From Phaeocystidibacter luteus (GTDB lineage Bacteria > Bacteroidota > Bacteroidia > Flavobacteriales > Schleiferiaceae): DNA of 64,000 bases. Below the pieces are notes generated by a model. It did not search any database. It was given only the letters and a program-made list of their open reading frames with translations, and had not been told where the DNA came from. Both the position numbers and the translations under genes were made by a program. The stretch spans positions 1-64,000 of the forward strand of contig NZ_WBVO01000004.1 in NCBI RefSeq assembly GCF_008933115.1. Direction: 5' to 3'. The first letter of the stretch is position 1; each line of letters opens with the position of its first letter. Below, piece by piece: positions 22,175-32,820 of the stretch.

Positions 22175-23842
22175 ATGAAAACAAAAATCACCCCGCTAGA
22201 GCGGTTGTATCGACTCCTAGTTCAGGATAAGAGAGAAGTTTTCTACGTTCTCTTTTTCGCCGTGCTGAACGGAGCCATTGGACTAGCACTGCCCCTGGGT
22301 TTCCAAGCCATCATCAATTTGGTGATGGGTGGCCGACCTAGTTCCGCATGGTGGGTGCTCGTAGGCGTCGTACTCGCTGCCATCCTTTTCGCCGGTATAC
22401 TTCAGATTTTCCAAATGCAGATTACGGAGATCCTCCAACAAAGAATCTTCGTCAGATCCGCCATAGAATTCAGTTACCGCATACCACGCCTACACCCGAA
22501 AGGTCTCGTTGGCGATAACCCTCCAGAGCTCGTAAACCGCTTTTTCGATACCCTTACCGTTCAAAAAGCCGTACCTAAAGTCCTGTTAGATGCCTCCACG
22601 AGTATCTTCCAGATTTTCTTTGCCCTCATTCTACTCTCCATCTATCACCCCTTATTCGTGGTGGCAGGTGCCGTAGTCATCGTCTTGGTTATTATCATCT
22701 TCCGCACCACCTGGAAACGCGGTTTGAAGACCAGCCTGGAAGAGAGTTCACACAAGTACGAAGTAGCATATTGGCTCGAACAGTTGGCCAATGCACTCAA
22801 CACCTTTAAACTTGCCGGTCAATCCGTTTGGCCAGACCTACGAACTAAGAAGTTCACCGAAAAGTGGTTGGGCGCACGTAAAGGACACTTCAAAATCATC
22901 ATCCTTCAATACGCACAGCTAGTCGGTTTCCGATTCATCCTAACGGGTATGCTCCTGATTTTCGGTGGTATCCTTGTATTTGAACAGCAGATGAGTATCG
23001 GTCAGTTCGTAGCCGTGGAAATCGTGTTCATCCTCATTACGAACAACGCCGACAAACTCGTGAAGCTCGCCGAACCCCTTTTCGATACGGTTACCGCTCT
23101 CGAGAAGATTGCATCCGTACTCGAACGCCCGCTTGAAGGCACCGAAGGACGCAGCATTTCTGCAAGAGAAAAGAGCTGGGCCGTTACCATCGAGACCGAG
23201 GAAGGCGAACACATCGCCATCGAACCTGGTGAACGACTCGCCATTGTGGGATACGCGGGTAGCGGTCGCACTAAACTTCTCACATCTGTAGCGGGACTAC
23301 TCCCAGAGAGGATGGCCGAAGTGAAGGTGAGCGGTATTCAGCTAGATCATTTAGACCCGTTCAATTACAGATGTGCAATCGGAGATAACTTGCGACAAGA
23401 GGCCTTGTTCAAAGCTCCTTTGCGCGATAACCTAACCGTGGGGTCAAACTTCTCAACCGAAGACGAAATACTCGATGGACTCGAAAAGGTTGGGCTTTAT
23501 TCGTGGTACGAAAGTCTCCCAATGGGTCTAGATCAAGTGGTTTCAGAAGATTCAGAATTGATCTCAACCTCGATATCACAGCGATTAATTCTATTGCGTG
23601 CCCTTCTGCGCCGCTCTAGAATACTCCTACTGCATGATTATCTCGAACATTGCGAGAAGAGTCTACGCGAGAAGATGATGACCGCTATCTTTGAACAAGA
23701 AGGAAGTATCCTCATCGCATCGAATAGAAAAGATGTGATCGACCGTGCAGATAAAGCGATTGTCATGAAGGATGGAAAGGTGATCTACAACGGAACGCCG
23801 AAGTCTATTCCAGCAGATATTAAAAACGATTTGATCTTTTAA
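22175..23842 (+). CDS. ABC exporter, fused permease and degenerate ATPase (type I secretion-like)
   Basis: A 555-residue half-transporter with an ABC membrane domain (about 20-310, e.g. GLALPLGFQAIINLVMGG, QQRIFVRSAIEFSYRIPRL, ELVNRFFDTLTVQK) and a C-terminal nucleotide-binding domain. That domain departs from consensus at every catalytic motif: Walker A GYAGSGRT has R365 for Lys; the signature is ISTSI (463-467) instead of LSGGQ; Walker B ends H-D488-Y489 without the catalytic Glu; the H-loop position is N517. It is followed by HlyD-like and TolC-like genes, so it should serve one tripartite export system. Either ATP hydrolysis is lost or it is unusual. Confidence 0.88.
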   Translation: MKTKITPLERLYRLLVQDKREVFYVLFFAVLNGAIGLALPLGFQAIINLVMGGRPSSAWWVLVGVVLAAILFAGILQIFQMQITEILQQRIFVRSAIEFSYRIPRLHPKGLVGDNPPELVNRFFDTLTVQKAVPKVLLDASTSIFQIFFALILLSIYHPLFVVAGAVVIVLVIIIFRTTWKRGLKTSLEESSHKYEVAYWLEQLANALNTFKLAGQSVWPDLRTKKFTEKWLGARKGHFKIIILQYAQLVGFRFILTGMLLIFGGILVFEQQMSIGQFVAVEIVFILITNNADKLVKLAEPLFDTVTALEKIASVLERPLEGTEGRSISAREKSWAVTIETEEGEHIAIEPGERLAIVGYAGSGRTKLLTSVAGLLPERMAEVKVSGIQLDHLDPFNYRCAIGDNLRQEALFKAPLRDNLTVGSNFSTEDEILDGLEKVGLYSWYESLPMGLDQVVSEDSELISTSISQRLILLRALLRRSRILLLHDYLEHCEKSLREKMMTAIFEQEGSILIASNRKDVIDRADKAIVMKDGKVIYNGTPKSIPADIKNDLIF

Positions 23843-23844
23843 TC

Positions 23845-25173
23845 ATGTTGAACATCTCAGAAAATCCTATCAAGGATAAGGTTGCTCCGGAGGTGCTCAA
23901 TACGTTTGAGAAGACTTCCGTTTCCCGCACGGTCCGCCGCTTCACGCGCTGGACAATGGTTCTGACCATCTTCGGATTAATCATGTTGTTCATTCCGTGG
24001 ACGCAGAACATTTCAAGCTATGGGCGCATCACGAATTACGATCCGGCGGTTCGTCCTCAGGATGTGCAATCTCCCATTCCCGGAAAGATCACCAAGTGGT
24101 TCGTGCGCGAAGGTGACACTGTTGCTGAAGGCGATACGCTTGCCTATCTAGCAGAAGTCGACCCTTCTTATTTCGACCCAGAGCTACTTCAGCGAATTGA
24201 TCAAGAGTTGGAGGCGAAGCGCTCCGCAGCTCAAGCTTATAAGGATAAAGCCGATGCACAGGCCGATCAAGTTTCAGCCCTGCAACGAAGTCTGCAAATT
24301 AAGAGAGGCGAACTCGATCTCAAGATTCACACCGACAGTGCGGATTACGCGGCTGCTGAAATTGGGATGAACCTAGCGCGCAGGCAGTATCAGCGTGCCG
24401 ATACGCTTTTCCGTGAAGGCATCAAAAGTCAATACGAGCTTGAACAACGCCTTCAAAAGTTTCAGGAGGCACAGGCGAAGTTTACCTCTGCAAGGAACAA
24501 GTACAACCAGAGCTTGGCGGAACGTCAGCGTGTAGAAGCCGATTACGCGGAATACATCGCCAAAGCGCGAAGTGAGCAGTTTACAGCCATTTCTTCTCGA
24601 GAGACCGCGCTTGCTGAAATCGCGAAATTAGTGAACCGCAGGTCGACTATCGAGGTTCGACAATCGTACCACACCGTTACGGCACCACAGGAGGGAATCG
24701 TAAGTAGGATTTACATTCGCGGTATTGCGGAGAACGTTAAAGCAGGTGATGCGATTGCCGAGCTTTTCCCAACTTCCGACGACCGCGCGGTTGAGGTATT
24801 TGTACGTCCGATGGACTTGCCAATCCTCAGAGAAAACCACCATGCTCAAATCGAGTTCGAAGGTTTTCCTGCCCTCGCAATTAGCGGGGAGCCTGGTTTG
24901 AACTACGGAACATATGCTTCACATGTTGCGGTTATTAGCCAGACGCCAGAATCAGATGGAACGTTCCGCGTTTTGCTGCGACCTTCAGAAGATTGGCCTG
25001 ATCGACTCCCATTCGGAACAGGGGCGAGAGCTTACATCCTCTTGGATGAGGTTCCTGTTTGGTACGAAATCTGGCGTCAAATTAACGGATTCCCAGCTGA
25101 GGCATACGATGCTCCTACCAAGATAGAGCCAAAGAAGTCTGATGTCGAACGGGTTAAGGACTCTGAGAAATGA
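23845..25173 (+). CDS. HlyD family membrane fusion protein
   Basis: Periplasmic adaptor of 442 residues linking the ABC exporter to an outer-membrane channel. There is a short cytoplasmic tail, a membrane helix at about 33-53 (MVLTIFGLIMLFIPW) and a biotinyl-lipoyl-like half (SPIPGKITKWFVREGDTVAEGDTLAYL). A long coiled coil follows (about 115-265, rich in Ala, Gln, Arg, Glu), then the second lipoyl half (VTAPQEGIVSRIYIRGIAENVKAGDAIAEL) and a beta-barrel region. It starts 2 bases after the ABC gene and overlaps the TolC-like gene by ATGA. Confidence 0.92.
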   Translation: MLNISENPIKDKVAPEVLNTFEKTSVSRTVRRFTRWTMVLTIFGLIMLFIPWTQNISSYGRITNYDPAVRPQDVQSPIPGKITKWFVREGDTVAEGDTLAYLAEVDPSYFDPELLQRIDQELEAKRSAAQAYKDKADAQADQVSALQRSLQIKRGELDLKIHTDSADYAAAEIGMNLARRQYQRADTLFREGIKSQYELEQRLQKFQEAQAKFTSARNKYNQSLAERQRVEADYAEYIAKARSEQFTAISSRETALAEIAKLVNRRSTIEVRQSYHTVTAPQEGIVSRIYIRGIAENVKAGDAIAELFPTSDDRAVEVFVRPMDLPILRENHHAQIEFEGFPALAISGEPGLNYGTYASHVAVISQTPESDGTFRVLLRPSEDWPDRLPFGTGARAYILLDEVPVWYEIWRQINGFPAEAYDAPTKIEPKKSDVERVKDSEK

Positions 25174-26549
25174 GAAATATCCTAGCCCTAGTCTTTGTGT
25201 TCAGCACGCTATTGAGTGTTGGACAATCCGACACGTTGAGTTTGGACAGCGTGATGAAATGGGTTGATGATTATCACCCCGTTGTGCGATCGCTTACTTA
25301 CAAAATGCGTGGGGCTGAGGCGAAGGTAACCTCAGCAAGAGGCGCATTTGACCCGAAGCTTGCGGGAAACTTCTCAGAGAAATTATTTGAGGATACCGAG
25401 TACTATCGATACGGTGAAGGTGGCTTGAATCTACCAACGTGGCTTGGTGTGGATGTATATGCGTACCGCTCATTCGCTCAGGGAACCTATTTGAATCCCG
25501 AATTGACCCAGCCGGATGACGGTCTGTGGCGAGTAGGGGTAAGTGTTCCGGTAGGTGGTGACCTTATTTGGGATGAAAGGCGAGCCATGCTGCGCGACGC
25601 CCAGCTCATTGTAGAAAGAACAGAGGCCGAGCAGCGCATAGCCTATAGTGATGTTAAGTTCGAATCCATGATGCGTTATTTGGAATGGGCTCAAAAGGAG
25701 GCCGAACTCCAAATTCTATATGAAGTGGAGCAACTCGCAAGAGAGCGTTTCTTGCTTACAAAACGTGCATTTCTTGCGGGAGATCGTCCCGAAATGGATA
25801 CGATTGAAAGCCGTATTTCTTGGTACAACAGAAAGCTAAAAGTTCAGGATGCCCAAGCGGCAGCAGCACAGGCCAGAGCTAAGCTTTCCGCTATGCTTTG
25901 GACGGAAGAGAACATCCCATTGGAAATCCCAAGTAATTACCATCCGGATTTATCTTCCTTGAACTTTGTTTCGCCGCCTGATTCAGCCACGATGTACGGC
26001 ATGTTGGCCGAGCAGCCACAAGTTGCAGCGTTGACCGTTGAGGTGGATAGAGCTTTGAACCAACGCCGTTGGACAAGAGCACAATTGTGGCCCGACATAA
26101 GTGTGAAGTACAACATCCTGCGAGGGGCGGGGGCAGATGCGGCTTGGAACATTCCCGATCAATATCAATGGGGTGTTCAAGTAAATATCCCATTGTTCTT
26201 AAGAAAGGCACGGGGTAATGCTGAGGCTGCGGATAACTATTACCGCGAGGCGGAACTGAAACAACAGGACGCCGTTCAGAAGGCAGAGGCAGAACTCTTT
26301 GGTATGCAAACCATGACAAGAACCCTGGGGAATCAGTGGTTGCAATCATTGGAAGTATATACCATGTCCGAGCGCCTCCTTGAAGCCGAAAGACGGAGAT
26401 TTATTATTGGTGAGAGCTCCGTGTTTCTTGTGAACTCTCGTGAAAACGCCATGATTAATGCAGCCGTGGAATGGCTGAAGATCAGGAAGGAATATCTGTT
26501 GTCTATTGAGCGCCAGAAGCGACTTGTAGCCGCTTATTGGGATCAATAA
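25170..26549 (+). CDS. TolC family outer-membrane efflux/secretion channel
   Basis: A 459-residue protein with a signal peptide (ending LSVGQ). It has two long helical repeats typical of OEP/TolC proteins (EQRIAYSDVKFESMMRYLEWAQKEAELQILYEV in part, later AEAELFGMQTMTRTLGNQWLQSLEVY). The motif ARFSVGE-like FIIGESSVFLVNSRENAMINA is near the end. It is the outer-membrane part of the tripartite exporter and translationally coupled (ATGA) to the HlyD-like gene. The cargo is not evident; no RTX-type or peptide substrate gene is adjacent. Confidence 0.92.
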   Translation: MRNILALVFVFSTLLSVGQSDTLSLDSVMKWVDDYHPVVRSLTYKMRGAEAKVTSARGAFDPKLAGNFSEKLFEDTEYYRYGEGGLNLPTWLGVDVYAYRSFAQGTYLNPELTQPDDGLWRVGVSVPVGGDLIWDERRAMLRDAQLIVERTEAEQRIAYSDVKFESMMRYLEWAQKEAELQILYEVEQLARERFLLTKRAFLAGDRPEMDTIESRISWYNRKLKVQDAQAAAAQARAKLSAMLWTEENIPLEIPSNYHPDLSSLNFVSPPDSATMYGMLAEQPQVAALTVEVDRALNQRRWTRAQLWPDISVKYNILRGAGADAAWNIPDQYQWGVQVNIPLFLRKARGNAEAADNYYREAELKQQDAVQKAEAELFGMQTMTRTLGNQWLQSLEVYTMSERLLEAERRRFIIGESSVFLVNSRENAMINAAVEWLKIRKEYLLSIERQKRLVAAYWDQ

Positions 26550-26550
26550 T

Positions 26551-27138
26551 TTACCTCCAACGACGGTCTCGACGATCCGGTGGATTCTTAGTCCATTCTA
26601 GCGGGCCTCCACATTTGATTTCGATAATAACGCTATTCGGATCCCCGAAGTAGTTGAGCATTTTGTTTCTCCACTCGCGGAAAGAATCACGGTCGTATAG
26701 GGCGCATTCGTAGTTCAAGACTATGATGCTGGTCTCGTTAATGATAACGATCGTAGGTGTGGCGTAGTCGTACGTGCGAATATCTCGACCCGGGCGTACC
26801 GACTGGCCTTCAATGAAGTTCTGAAGCCAATATTGCATGGCGTAGTCGCGCTCGGCTTCGTCGTAATAAGCGTAGGCATTAATGTAGTAACGCGCATAGA
26901 TTTCTCTATCCAGGTTGCTCATTACGCGCTCCTTGCTTTTCAACATGTAGCGCTCCGAAAAAGTGAAATTGGTTTCCTCGATGTCGCCAATCTCAGGGTC
27001 ATCGAGATTGAGCGTTTTCTTCTCATAGTCTTCACTGTGGTCGGCAGCGAAAGCCTCCAATTTTTGACTTAGCTCCTCGTGCTGTGCTGTTGAGGCTAGA
27101 GAGAGTAACACGAGGCAGGTGCTGATAATTTTTTTCAT
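26551..27138 (-). CDS. Hypothetical secreted protein
   Basis: A 195-residue protein with a clear signal peptide (MKKIISTCLVLLSLASTAQ). The mature part is acidic at the start, rich in Tyr in the middle (ARYYINAYAYYDEAERDYAMQYW) and ends in a basic Arg/Trp tail (PPDRRDRRWR). I do not recognise a family. It is convergent with the TolC-like gene (1 base between stops) and divergent from the acetyltransferase gene 45 bases away. Confidence 0.65.
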   Translation of the reverse strand: MKKIISTCLVLLSLASTAQHEELSQKLEAFAADHSEDYEKKTLNLDDPEIGDIEETNFTFSERYMLKSKERVMSNLDREIYARYYINAYAYYDEAERDYAMQYWLQNFIEGQSVRPGRDIRTYDYATPTIVIINETSIIVLNYECALYDRDSFREWRNKMLNYFGDPNSVIIEIKCGGPLEWTKNPPDRRDRRWR

Positions 27139-28449: not shown

Positions 28450-29759
28450 GAATCATTCGATTTTTAAGGGAGCAAACCCGGCTCTGGTACTCGCAGAACA
28501 TCGTGCTCGCCATAGCTGCGATCATTTCTATTTTTCAGGTACTGAAAATCGGGAACGGGCTTTTCATGCACGATGCGTGGCATGTTGTTCAAGTCCTGTT
28601 GGCGTCGGACGAACCGCTTTCAGGATTCTTTACACAGCACGGGCCTCATCATTTTGGAGTTGCCTACTACATCCACGAATTCGCATTTCTGTTTGGGGCT
28701 GAAACTTCGGGTTTTCATGCGGTGGTTCAAGTACTCATGCTAGCTGTTAGTGCTTGGTTTGGATTAGAATTGCTTTCAAGGTGGCGAGGTAAGAGAAGTT
28801 GGATGGATTTGTGGGTGCCTCTTCTGTTTCTCAACCCACTTACGCTTCTCAATTCGGCGACGGAGCCCTATTTGCATTCCTTTACCGTTCTTTTTGCTTT
28901 GTGGGTGGCCTATTTGGGCTTTGGATACGTGAGGTCAGCCCGACTGATAACCTTGATGATTGTGCTCTTTATGAGTGCATTTACCTTCAACGCAAACTTG
29001 GTCGTCATTGCTGCTTTCGTTTTCTACTTGAGTCATTGGTTTAAAACGAAATGGTATACATCGGGGATAATCGCATTGTGGTCGTTATTGCTTATTGGTT
29101 TGATGCTTCTTACCACAGATTTCGCTGGAGTAGAAAGTACAGCGGCAGATGGATTTGATTTTTGGGTGTGGTCTGTTTATGTGGTTCGATTGGTCACGAG
29201 CTATTTCTACATCAACCCTATGCGTTTTACTCTCCTATCAGGAATTGCTGCATTTATAGCATTGCTATATGTGCTTGCACACCCTTGGATTCGAGCTCGG
29301 AAGTGGGAGAATAAAGAGTACGGACTTTGGCTTTTGATAGGTGTGCTAATCTTGTATTGGGGATTGAATAGCCTCACACGTTGGTCGATGCCGGAAGGGA
29401 ACATTTACGCTACCCGATATTTTGCGATGGCGCCACTTCTTTTATTCGTAGTCTGGGTGTCCTTCAATCTTCAACGAAGATGGAAAAAGCGAATGCCATT
29501 AGCAGGAATGGTTGTCATGGCTTTGTCGCTATACCTGAATCAATCCGAGTTCCTGTTCAGGAAATCTCGTTTCGACGAGAACCTCAAGGTTGAGGAAGCG
29601 CGTATGCAACTCAATTTGAATCATTCTGAAGAAAAGCCCTGTTATCTTCATGGAAATCCAGAGGGTGTTCAATTAGATTGGACAAGCAGGGTGCTGTTTC
29701 CCGAGTATTATTCAGACCACTTCAGCGACAACGAAAGTGCTTCCGCCTACGAAGATTAG
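28446..29759 (+). CDS. Polytopic membrane protein, glycosyltransferase-like topology
   Basis: A 437-residue protein with roughly ten hydrophobic segments and an early conserved-looking loop (MHDAWHVVQVLLASDEPLSGFFTQHGPHHFGVAYYIHEF). An acidic His/Asp loop after the first helix followed by many helices is the layout of GT-C type glycosyltransferases, but no defining motif is secured. The C-terminal 60 residues are soluble. The TTG start overlaps the upstream stop (4 bases). Its 3' end overlaps the convergent folC by 48 bases. Confidence 0.62.
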   Translation: MRIIRFLREQTRLWYSQNIVLAIAAIISIFQVLKIGNGLFMHDAWHVVQVLLASDEPLSGFFTQHGPHHFGVAYYIHEFAFLFGAETSGFHAVVQVLMLAVSAWFGLELLSRWRGKRSWMDLWVPLLFLNPLTLLNSATEPYLHSFTVLFALWVAYLGFGYVRSARLITLMIVLFMSAFTFNANLVVIAAFVFYLSHWFKTKWYTSGIIALWSLLLIGLMLLTTDFAGVESTAADGFDFWVWSVYVVRLVTSYFYINPMRFTLLSGIAAFIALLYVLAHPWIRARKWENKEYGLWLLIGVLILYWGLNSLTRWSMPEGNIYATRYFAMAPLLLFVVWVSFNLQRRWKKRMPLAGMVVMALSLYLNQSEFLFRKSRFDENLKVEEARMQLNLNHSEEKPCYLHGNPEGVQLDWTSRVLFPEYYSDHFSDNESASAYED

Positions 29760-30926
29760 GTCTTCTTTCCCGGCGATGGCTTTGGCCGCAATGAGTGCAT
29801 TTTTCACGGACGTATGAGCCTTGCCTTGTAGGCCAATCTTCTTGGCTGCACTGTGAAGTGTTTCTGCATCGAGTCCTCTAGGAATATCCGGCTTACAGAA
29901 ATAGTAGGTTGCTTTTGTCGGCAGCATCCTCAAGACGGAATCGATATCCTTATCGTTGACCATTCCCCACACCAAATGCAGGTGTTCATGGGGAGTGTTT
30001 TCAAGTTGATTAATGATGAAACGAATTCCGTCGGCATTATGTCCAGTATCGCAAATCGTAAGTGGGTTAGTTGATAGGATTTGCCATCGGCCTAGTAGAC
30101 CGGTATTCTCTACAACATTTCTCAACCCTGCCTTGACGTGTGTCTCTTCGATTTCAAAAAGCTCTTGCTGATGCACTGCTGCTACAGCGGTCCTAACATT
30201 GTGAACTTGATACTCGCCTTTGAGGTCGGTGGAATAATTCGTTCGTATTGCTTCATCGGCCCACAAAATAGGAGCGTCGTTTTGAGCCGCTGCCTTGAGG
30301 AATACGGGTGTGGTTTCTACCTGACGTTGACCTATAACTACTGGAATGCCGGGTTTAATGATCCCTGCTTTTTCTCCGGCAATGGTAGCGATGTCGTTTC
30401 CTAGAAAAGCTTGATGATCGAGCCCAATATTGGTGATCACGCTCACCTCAGGGGTAATCACATTTGTGCTGTCGAGTCTTCCGCCCATGCCTACTTCAAC
30501 AATGGCTATATCAACTTGATGATTGACGAAACAGTCGAACGCGAGGCCGACGGTCATTTCGAAAAAGCTCAATTCGAGGGCTTGGAAAGCTGATTTATGA
30601 GTGTCGACGAATTCAATGACTTCTTCTTTGGAAATCATCACACCATTGATTTTTACGCGTTCGCGGAAATCGCGTAGGTGAGGGGATGTGTATAATCCTA
30701 CTTTGTAACCTGCTTCCTGAAAAATGGAAGCGAGCATGTGGGATACTGAGCCTTTGCCATTGGTGCCAGCTACATGGATGCTTTTGAAGCGCTTCTCGGG
30801 GTGACCGAGATGCTCCATAAGGGCATGCGTTTTAGAAAGGTCGATTTTATAGTTCGCTCCACCGCTCCGCTGGTAAACCGGGAGTTGATTGTAGAGCCAG
30901 TTTACCGTTTCTTGGAACTTATTCAA
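29712..30926 (-). CDS. folC: Bifunctional folylpolyglutamate synthase/dihydrofolate synthase
   Basis: Adds glutamate to dihydropteroate or folates using ATP. The Mur-ligase fold is shown by FKSIHVAGTNGKGSVSHMLASI (P-loop), GLYTSPHLRDFRERVKING, VEVGMGGRLDSTNVI, NIGLDHQAFLGND and the C-terminal ICDTGHNADGIR. The TTG at 30926 is chosen because it starts 4 bases after the stop of the tonB-like gene and matches the family N-terminus; starting at 30989 would add 21 unrelated residues overlapping that gene. It is last in the exbB-exbD-tonB operon. Confidence 0.93.
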   Translation of the reverse strand: MNKFQETVNWLYNQLPVYQRSGGANYKIDLSKTHALMEHLGHPEKRFKSIHVAGTNGKGSVSHMLASIFQEAGYKVGLYTSPHLRDFRERVKINGVMISKEEVIEFVDTHKSAFQALELSFFEMTVGLAFDCFVNHQVDIAIVEVGMGGRLDSTNVITPEVSVITNIGLDHQAFLGNDIATIAGEKAGIIKPGIPVVIGQRQVETTPVFLKAAAQNDAPILWADEAIRTNYSTDLKGEYQVHNVRTAVAAVHQQELFEIEETHVKAGLRNVVENTGLLGRWQILSTNPLTICDTGHNADGIRFIINQLENTPHEHLHLVWGMVNDKDIDSVLRMLPTKATYYFCKPDIPRGLDAETLHSAAKKIGLQGKAHTSVKNALIAAKAIAGKEDLIFVGGSTFVVAEVV

Positions 30927-30930
30927 GGTG

Positions 30931-31704
30931 CTAGTTCTTGATGAAGTTGTAGATGATAAAGCCAACTTGCTCATCGGGAGCATTAGCATCGCCCTGCCAT
31001 TTGGTTCTCATCGCTGCACTTCGAGCTTTATCAAATAAACAAGGGTCGAATGTATTGGTTTGAATTGTGCCATCACGTGACTCTTCGCCAGGGATAGCAC
31101 GTGTGACAGTTCCACTGCGATTCACATACACTTTTACCACGACAGTTCCTTCACCCGAACAACCCTTATCTGGCTCAGGTGTTTGAAGTGCTCTTCTGCC
31201 ACCAAGGTCATATTTGCCACTGTTCCCACTTCCTCCGTTACCTGTGCGAGACTGACTGTTTGGATCGCCGTTAGGGTCTCCTTGATCGCCACCACCTTCG
31301 GTTACACCTTCGCCTGCGCCGGTTCCATCTCTTGTGGATTGAAGAGCGCTGTTAAGACGGTTAGAAGGTTGAGGATCTGGTTCTTGCTCCTCAACTTGTT
31401 GTTGTTGCGTTTCTTGTGTGTTGATAGACGGCGCATCCACACTCGATTGAGTTGCAACGTCAGTTTCTGCGGTTTGCGTTTGTGGCTGCGGTTGAGCCTC
31501 TTCGGGCTGTGTGGGTTGTTCTGACTGTTGTGCGGAAGAGGTTGAGCCACTTCCTGCTGCGTCGTACCCAAAATTGATAGCAATTCCTTCCTCAGGCGGA
31601 GGGTCGAGGTAAGTGAAGCCAAAGAAAATCAACCACACCATTGTGAGTATGGCAAATAGAATGGCCGCGATTCTTCCGTTTCTCTTATCCTTTTGGTCAG
31701 ACAT
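30931..31704 (-). CDS. TonB-like energy transducer
   Basis: A 257-residue protein with a single N-terminal membrane anchor (IAAILFAILTMVWLIFFGF). A long Gln/Pro/Glu/Thr-rich periplasmic linker (about 50-140) and a Gly/Asn-rich stretch follow. The C-terminal domain (EGTVVVKVYVNRSGTVTRAIPG, then FDKARSAAMRTKW) is the TonB-C type. It transmits proton-motive force from ExbB/ExbD to TonB-dependent receptors, such as the SusC protein in this window. The gene sits 7 bases after exbD on the minus strand. Confidence 0.86.
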   Translation of the reverse strand: MSDQKDKRNGRIAAILFAILTMVWLIFFGFTYLDPPPEEGIAINFGYDAAGSGSTSSAQQSEQPTQPEEAQPQPQTQTAETDVATQSSVDAPSINTQETQQQQVEEQEPDPQPSNRLNSALQSTRDGTGAGEGVTEGGGDQGDPNGDPNSQSRTGNGGSGNSGKYDLGGRRALQTPEPDKGCSGEGTVVVKVYVNRSGTVTRAIPGEESRDGTIQTNTFDPCLFDKARSAAMRTKWQGDANAPDEQVGFIIYNFIKN

Positions 31705-31711
31705 GGTCTCG

Positions 31712-32104
31712 TTATTTTGGATCTGTTGCCAAAATCATCTTCAACTTGTTTCGGTATGCGATATCCATTACTTCCACGGTTTTACCTGTAGGAACAGATT
31801 CATCGGCATAGAGAACAACTACAGCTTCAGGATTTCCGACAACGGCTGTGAGCAACTCGTTTTCGAGCTGAGCTTGTGAAACATTCGTGCCATTCACAGA
31901 ATATTGAAGGTCGGCCGTAATGGATACTGAAACATCATTTCGTTTAACCGTTTGAGCATTGCTCTTCGGCAGAATGAGGTCGAGGGCTCGAGAAGTTACG
32001 AGCGTTGAGGTAAGCATGAAGAAGATGAGTAGGAGGAAGACCAGGTCGGTCATCGAACTCATCGCAAAATCCGCACTTACTTTAGATTTTCTGTTGAAAT
32101 TCAT
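31712..32104 (-). CDS. exbD: Biopolymer transport protein ExbD/TolR
   Basis: A 130-residue protein with one membrane helix (SSMTDLVFLLLIFFMLTSTLV) containing the conserved Asp (MTDLVFLLLIFF) needed for proton transfer, then a periplasmic domain (VSVSITADLQYSVNGTNV...AVVVLYADESVPTGKTVEVMDIA). It is paired with exbB upstream and tonB downstream in one operon. Length and motifs are typical. Confidence 0.94.
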   Translation of the reverse strand: MNFNRKSKVSADFAMSSMTDLVFLLLIFFMLTSTLVTSRALDLILPKSNAQTVKRNDVSVSITADLQYSVNGTNVSQAQLENELLTAVVGNPEAVVVLYADESVPTGKTVEVMDIAYRNKLKMILATDPK

Positions 32105-32115
32105 AGTTCCTCTGC

Positions 32116-32820
32116 TTACAGTGGTTCGTGAAGTAGATCGAGGAATTCGGTTGCGCTAACCTCCATTTTGTATACCACACTTTCTACTCGGGTGGTGAGG
32201 TAGTTGTATCCGAAGTAAGCCATGATACCCACGAATAGGCCTCCTACGGTAGTGGTCATTGCTGTATAAATACCTTCTGCTAGAAGTGAAACATCAACTT
32301 GTCCACCGGCATTTGCCATTTCTTTAAAGGCGAGTACCATACCGATTACGGTTCCCAAGAATCCAATCATAGGCGCGCCACCTGAAATTGTAGCGAGGTA
32401 AGGAAGACCTCGTTCTAGTCTCTGAACTTCGATCTTACCTTGGTTTTCGATGGATGCAGAAATGTCGCCCATGCTCTTTCCAATTCGGCTTACGCCTTTC
32501 TGAAGTAATCGAGCAACGGGAGTATCTGTGCTTTCGCAAAGGGCTTGGGCAGCTTCCATCTTTCCATTGGCAACGTGATCTTTCAGGTTGTTCATGAAGT
32601 TAGGGTCAAGCTTGTTGGCTCTTTTGATGGCGCCAAATCTTTCGAAGAAAAGGTAAACGGCGATGATGGCAAGGATGAAAAGCATCGCCATAATGATGAT
32701 GCCGCCCGTTCCGCCACTGGTAATCAAACTAAAGAAAGAAACGGTTTCCTCAGTAGGTCCAGCCGAGGCTGTGTCGGCGCCAGTAGATATCTGTAAAAAG
32801 TAAGAAGCCTTGTTCAGCAT
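32116..32820 (-). CDS. exbB: MotA/TolQ/ExbB proton channel family protein
   Basis: A 234-residue inner-membrane protein with three membrane segments: IIIMAMLFILAIIAVYLFF near the start, and two C-terminal ones in the MotA/TolQ/ExbB domain (GLPYLATISGGAPMIGFLGTVIGMVLAFKEMA and EGIYTAMTTTVGGLFVGIMAYFGYNYL). It forms the proton channel with ExbD. First gene of the operon exbB-exbD-tonB-folC. A putative -7 box lies 69 bases upstream on the minus strand. Confidence 0.94.
   Translation of the reverse strand: MLNKASYFLQISTGADTASAGPTEETVSFFSLITSGGTGGIIIMAMLFILAIIAVYLFFERFGAIKRANKLDPNFMNNLKDHVANGKMEAAQALCESTDTPVARLLQKGVSRIGKSMGDISASIENQGKIEVQRLERGLPYLATISGGAPMIGFLGTVIGMVLAFKEMANAGGQVDVSLLAEGIYTAMTTTVGGLFVGIMAYFGYNYLTTRVESVVYKMEVSATEFLDLLHEPL

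Follow-up and report, generated by a model that had tools for sequence, protein, structure and literature searches.

An ABC-type exporter with a degenerate nucleotide-binding domain in Phaeocystidibacter luteus and its Bacteroidota relatives that lack the domain

Several described ABC exporters resemble the system reported here. Many heterodimeric exporters have one degenerate site, and Asp in place of the catalytic Glu occurs in the degenerate sites of known heterodimers. In TM287/288 and TmrAB, the lesions are confined to one composite site, and the other is active. PCAT1 and ComA represent the C39 peptide exporters. In HlyB/HlyD/TolC type I secretion, an ABC half-transporter, a HlyD adaptor and TolC are encoded in one operon, and the HlyB/HlyD complex contains three HlyB dimers and six HlyD (PMC11026475). 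Finally, proton-coupled transport was seen with LmrA-MD (PMC2704374) and MsbA-MD (PMC4979069), type IV transmembrane domains (TMDs) engineered without a nucleotide-binding domain (NBD). No paper on the exporter family described herein, or on natural ABC exporters lacking the NBD, was found among the open-access papers searched.

In the present study, we analysed an ABC-exporter-like gene and its neighbours in a 64,000-nucleotide stretch of Phaeocystidibacter luteus DNA (the window; NZ_WBVO01000004.1, positions 1 to 64,000). The features are as follows, with the evidence for each in brackets.

22175 to 23842, + strand: ABC-exporter-like gene with a type IV TMD and an NBD predicted to be catalytically dead (ORF and translation, Pfam, Foldseek)
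22175 to 23128, + strand: TMD, residues 1-318, strongly conserved and kept in NBD-less relatives (alignment, intra-genus identity)
23129 to 23839, + strand: degenerate NBD, residues 319-555, fast-evolving (intra-genus identity 53-66%; AF2 model)
23249 to 23272, + strand: Walker A GYAGSGRT, G359-Y-A-G-S-G-R365-T366, Lys to Arg (translation, alignments)
23561 to 23575, + strand: signature position, I463-S-T-S-I467 (ISTSI) where LSGGQ is expected (translation, alignments)
23633 to 23638, + strand: Walker B H487-D488, Asp to His and Glu to Asp (phmmer and MAFFT alignments)
23723 to 23725, + strand: H-loop, His to Asn, N517 (alignments)
23845 to 25173, + strand: HlyD-like periplasmic adaptor, 442 aa, fused to the TMD in the sister genus (Pfam HlyD_3 and Biotin_lipoyl_2; fusion alignment)
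25170 to 26549, + strand: TolC-like outer-membrane factor, 459 aa (Pfam OEP, 4e-28)
26551 to 27138, - strand: 195-aa protein found beside the system in the NBD-dead genus and in the fused NBD-less genus (homologues at L050, L051, L045, L046 and L170)

The first gene is an open frame of 555 aa. The protein matches ABC_membrane (PF00664) at residues 22-286 (E 4e-10) and ABC_tran (PF00005) at residues 348-486 (41.5 bits, above the cut-off), and the former match, together with the Foldseek results, assigns its TMD to the type IV exporter fold. The top Foldseek matches were TM287/288, HlyB (8dck_A, rank 2) and PCAT1, and the nearest solved TMDs in a profile search were those of ComA (2e-10) and PCAT1 (2e-5). 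Against TIGR03375, the protein scored 138.8 bits compared with a cut-off of 693.1, and it falls far below the NCBIfam cut-offs for type I secretion. An AF2 model from six sequences had a mean pLDDT of 74.8 and a pTM of 0.44, with unreliable inter-domain placement; within this model, the NBD has an NBD fold with block-mean pLDDT mostly of 80-91 from residue 331 (range 64-91). Two genes lie directly downstream, one HlyD-like and one TolC-like, the latter overlapping the stop of the former, in the ABC-HlyD-TolC order of a HlyB-type operon. An earlier reading of this DNA from the sequence only had described an intact frame coupled to these two genes, and it was right in both respects.

All four catalytic elements of the NBD (the Walker A Lys, the Walker B Asp-Glu, LSGGQ and the H-loop His) are changed. 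The sequence-only reading had noted R365 (codon 23267-23269), ISTSI and N517, and translation and alignments bear out each of these. It had also reported an altered Walker B motif, which stands, at D488-Y489, which is off by one residue: in phmmer alignments to PDB chains and in MAFFT alignments with intact exporters of the same genome, RILLL-H-D-Y pairs with PILIL-D-E-A, so that the altered pair is H487-D488 and Y489 is noncatalytic. Moreover, the window genus lacks the A-loop/beta-hairpin, a stretch of about 15 residues that would follow E343. By homology, the catalytic site of this domain is predicted to be dead.

The comparison with Bacteroidota relatives proposed in that earlier reading extends the loss of motifs to a whole clade. 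Orthologues were observed in 62 of the 88 genomes of the bacterial family, and the TMD profile had matches in 100 of 296 genomes from the order and in 98 of the 395 sampled across the phylum. The two congeners (81% and 71% identical) have the same R365, lost signature, HD at Walker B and Asn in the H-loop. No complete catalytic set was present among 91 aligned NBDs of the ingroup clade, where 2 members have the second Gly of the signature, 1 has the H-loop His, 9 have the Walker B Asp and 9 have the catalytic Glu; the Walker A Lys, kept in 85, is the last motif to be lost. The loci counted here were the best-scoring matches plus representatives picked by hand, not a random sample. All 17 NBDs of the deeper outgroup have Lys, Asp and Glu, 13/17 have His, and the signatures range from LSTGQ to LPxG. 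Close orthologues with intact motifs, which would have spoken against the earlier reading, were sought, and none was found. Since the same motifs were lost in both congeners and across the clade, the loss is not a matter of chance. Walker A is wholly gone in one further locus (L135) and in Aureibacter tunicatorum WP_309940528.1; this isolate and Riemerella anatipestifer (WP_004920602.1) both carry degenerate members. The frame is open in all but one of the matches listed in the family-wide search.

Two side observations were made in these alignments. The ingroup Walker B mostly reads Glu-Asp instead of Asp-Glu (Glu at position 487 in 63/91 and Asp at 488 in 65/91, e.g. L012, L019 and L154), as if the two acids had changed places. 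Most of the outgroup with intact Walker motifs (L138-L153) and some degenerate members (L118-L124) have an N-terminal extension of about 120-260 aa, and no convincing Pfam match to this extension was found in the five proteins scanned.

The two domains have evolved at different rates. Between the window protein and one congener (G031), identity was 92.5% in the TMD and 66% in the NBD, and with the other (G030), about 85% and about 53%. The TMD was the more conserved domain in 17/17 family pairs, whereas the NBD was more conserved in 5/6 comparisons of two canonical exporters from the same three genomes. This inversion is already seen in the outgroup. Between the window gene and that of G031, dN was 0.32 for the NBD and 0.07 for the TMD; synonymous sites were mostly saturated, and only comparisons between domains, not dN/dS, were therefore used. 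Where the TM helices extend into the cytoplasm, several charged residues (R122, D125, K131, K194, H238, D304 and K311) are invariant or nearly so, even in members without the NBD. An acid in TM6, E282, is invariant in the NBD-less members and is replaced by Asn in ComA and PCAT1. Because E282 and the intracellular charges are also conserved in the outgroup with an intact Walker B, they predate the loss of the ATPase, and they may be structural. In LmrA, E314 in TM6 has been tied to proton coupling (PMC2704374); E282 is only a candidate for such a role.

In two groups of relatives, the NBD is absent. In the sister genus of the window genus (g16), the TMD runs in frame into the HlyD adaptor, and TolC follows. 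The fused ORFs, confirmed in six genomes, comprise 741-764 aa, with the TMD at about 17-321 and HlyD at about 336-755, and the family-wide search gave six further matches in this genus, some truncated or broken. The sister relationship had a support of 98/97 in the TMD tree and 97 in a larger quick tree. Since the fusion branch is long in the tree, synteny is an important second line of evidence: several loci of this genus share with the window a folylpolyglutamate-synthase-like gene, TonB, ExbD, ExbB and the 195-aa protein, and the fusion is thus the positional orthologue of the window gene. In the second group, stand-alone NBD-less TMD genes of 334-360 aa are followed by HlyD and TolC in six genomes (G657, G553, G482, G650, G406 and G564) belonging to three other families (f24, f23 and f17). 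A single clade containing both groups was rejected (p-AU 0.00037), and the NBD has therefore been lost at least twice. In one genus (g106), different species have NBD-less and NBD-bearing versions (L129 and L132) that are widely separated in the tree, a pattern suggestive of gene transfer or an old duplication.

The positions of the coupling helices were taken from the type IV topology of the model, not from measured contacts; in the fusion clade, the two regions so defined show mean identities of 23% and 18%, compared with 91% for TM1, 84% for TM6 and 76% for the intracellular core of TM3. In the TMD-only clade, coupling helix 1 is retained (63% identity).

The surroundings of the operon were also compared. 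The 195-aa protein adjoins the operon, on either side, in both the window genus and the fused one (L045, L046) and at one further locus (L170), and could be a functional partner of the system. The folylpolyglutamate-synthase-like, TonB, ExbD and ExbB genes lie at 29712-32820 of the window, a position common to the window genus and several g16 genomes; an ion-driven ExbB/ExbD/TonB motor lies near an ATPase-dead exporter, but the genes run in the opposite direction and may be old neighbours only. The upstream 313-aa ORF of the window was considered as a counterpart of the DUF481 protein upstream of the fusion, and the two are unrelated. The usual operon of the family is TetR-ABC-HlyD-TolC, and the TetR regulators in many operons point weakly to small-molecule efflux. 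At two loci, carotenoid genes (phytoene synthase crtB, phytoene desaturase crtI and a MerR/B12 carH-like regulator) flank the operon (L054:10758-14001 and L041:1-3004). These two loci belong to two genera of one clade and no such genes were noted at the other loci examined, and carotenoid export is not claimed as the function.

Several explanations for these findings have to be weighed. Catalytic motifs that have been lost in a rapidly diverging NBD might reflect recent pseudogenisation, a sequencing error or misassembly. This is hardly credible, and can be regarded as already refuted by the comparative data: the loss is common to three congeners and about 90 relatives, the R. anatipestifer and A. 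tunicatorum isolates among them, the listed matches are open with the one exception, and the fusion ORF was read complete in six genomes. The judgement of the sequence-only reading that this is not simple decay is supported by the clade-wide extent of the loss, by the open frame, by the conservation of the TMD, HlyD and TolC and by relatives that keep the system without the NBD. A different possibility is that ATP hydrolysis is supplied in trans, by another half-transporter in a heterodimer or by a separate NBD protein. Heterodimers in which one site is degenerate offer a familiar model for this, other ABC exporters are present in the window genome and in the NBD-less genomes, and the retained coupling helix 1 of the TMD-only clade would suit it. 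Nevertheless, each genome searched encodes one family TMD (two in G378 alone), and no convincing family paralogue that might serve as the partner ATPase was found in the window genome. The window protein has lost its signature together with Walker B and the H-loop, which would leave each of the two composite sites of any heterodimer defective. No partner half-transporter completing one active site was found, although an unrelated one might conceivably serve. With the family NBD profile, the best score in 10 NBD-less genomes was 172 bits, whereas four NBD-bearing controls reached 208-325, and the stand-alone ATP-binding proteins of the NBD-less genomes scored about 100 bits or less. No orphan family NBD was therefore seen above the background of ordinary exporters in these 10 genomes, some of which are drafts, a result that is strong but not absolute. 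Nor was a conserved ABC gene adjacent to the system found in the neighbourhoods examined, the large two-cassette ABC-like neighbour at L149 and L150 reading as UvrA, and the coupling helices of the fusion clade have eroded. We consider an ATPase in trans unlikely. The sequence-only reading had offered it beside another energy source and a scaffold; the latter two gain support from the present data and the former is disfavoured. Less probable again is that the NBD serves as a nucleotide-binding regulatory sensor or hydrolyses ATP very slowly by a non-canonical route. The Walker A Lys in 85/91 members, the retained NBD fold and the Asp for catalytic Glu in 65/91, as in the degenerate sites of heterodimers, would all be in keeping with such a role, but in the window genus this Lys is Arg, the Walker B Asp is His and the A-loop is missing, L135 and A. 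tunicatorum have nothing left of Walker A, and the NBD diverges rapidly and was deleted in two clades.

The remaining alternatives concern the TMD itself. It might be a passive conduit, a plug or an anchor for HlyD-TolC assembly with no energy coupling left, the substrate entering from the periplasm or outer leaflet or leaking down its own gradient. Every part of the ATPase is dispensable in two clades, HlyD and TolC are kept throughout, and the TMD-HlyD fusion suggests an anchoring role. On the other hand, the seven cytoplasmic charged residues are kept without the NBD, suggesting a working cytoplasmic gate, and a pure anchor would allow more change than an intra-genus TMD identity of 85-92%. 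We regard this passive reading as a serious although rather unlikely alternative. The explanation that we favour, with a probability of about 55%, is that a system of the HlyB/HlyD/TolC type has become independent of ATP hydrolysis, that its NBD is vestigial, and that export driven by an ion-motive force is the most likely mode. The window gene would encode the inner-membrane part of a tripartite export system able to dispense with ATP hydrolysis. The first step would have been the disabling of the NBD at the signature, Walker B and H-loop; in the window genus, this would have been followed by loss of the Walker A lysine and A-loop; and the domain would have been deleted in the sister genus and in one other clade. 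What remains of the NBD may be a vestige kept as a folded structure, with the TMD dimer, docked to HlyD and TolC, probably still acting as conduit and gate. Secondary export through the TMD, coupled to an ion-motive force, would be the most likely energy source, followed by passive export down a gradient. Ion coupling is the most likely single mechanism because the engineered NBD-less LmrA and MsbA can use a proton gradient. The 1:1 TMD-HlyD fusion also fits the ratio of three HlyB dimers to six HlyD. Against this preferred explanation, most relatives keep the Walker A lysine, and nucleotide binding may be useful there; the LmrA and MsbA truncations are engineered and not natural; and coupling helix 1 in the TMD-only clade is unexpected if nothing docks there.

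Compared with the described systems, the present family shares with HlyB/HlyD/TolC its gene set, and differs from it in having no intact ATPase site and, in two clades, no NBD. It resembles PCAT1 and ComA in the TMD, but the window protein lacks the C39 peptidase domain and a catalytic NBD, and the TM6 Asn of those exporters is the invariant Glu in this family. With TM287/288 and TmrAB, it shares the fold, the degenerate motifs, the change of Glu to Asp and the replaced His; in the window protein, unlike in these heterodimers, both sites are hit, and no partner was found. LmrA-MD and MsbA-MD are likewise type IV TMDs without the NBD, but they are laboratory truncations without an adaptor or outer-membrane channel, whereas the loss described herein is natural, occurred twice and took place within a tripartite system.

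These findings have implications for the annotation and the biology of this family. By descent, the window protein is an ABC exporter of a HlyB-HlyD-TolC-like system, although by motif it does not qualify as an ATPase, and some of its relatives lack the domain. Named members are labelled "ABC transporter ATP-binding protein" despite motifs by which they should not hydrolyse ATP. The case that an ABC membrane domain can work without its ATPase has so far come mainly from the laboratory truncations LmrA-MD and MsbA-MD. Evolution seems to have removed the NBD from a tripartite system on two or more occasions, by way of graded intermediates, and this repeated natural loss makes the question directly testable. 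We tentatively suggest, as a possibility that falls short of an even chance, that this is a natural tripartite exporter family of ABC descent that may have switched from ATP to an ion gradient, in which the window genus would represent the last step before the NBD is discarded and the sister genus would have discarded it and fused the TMD to HlyD.
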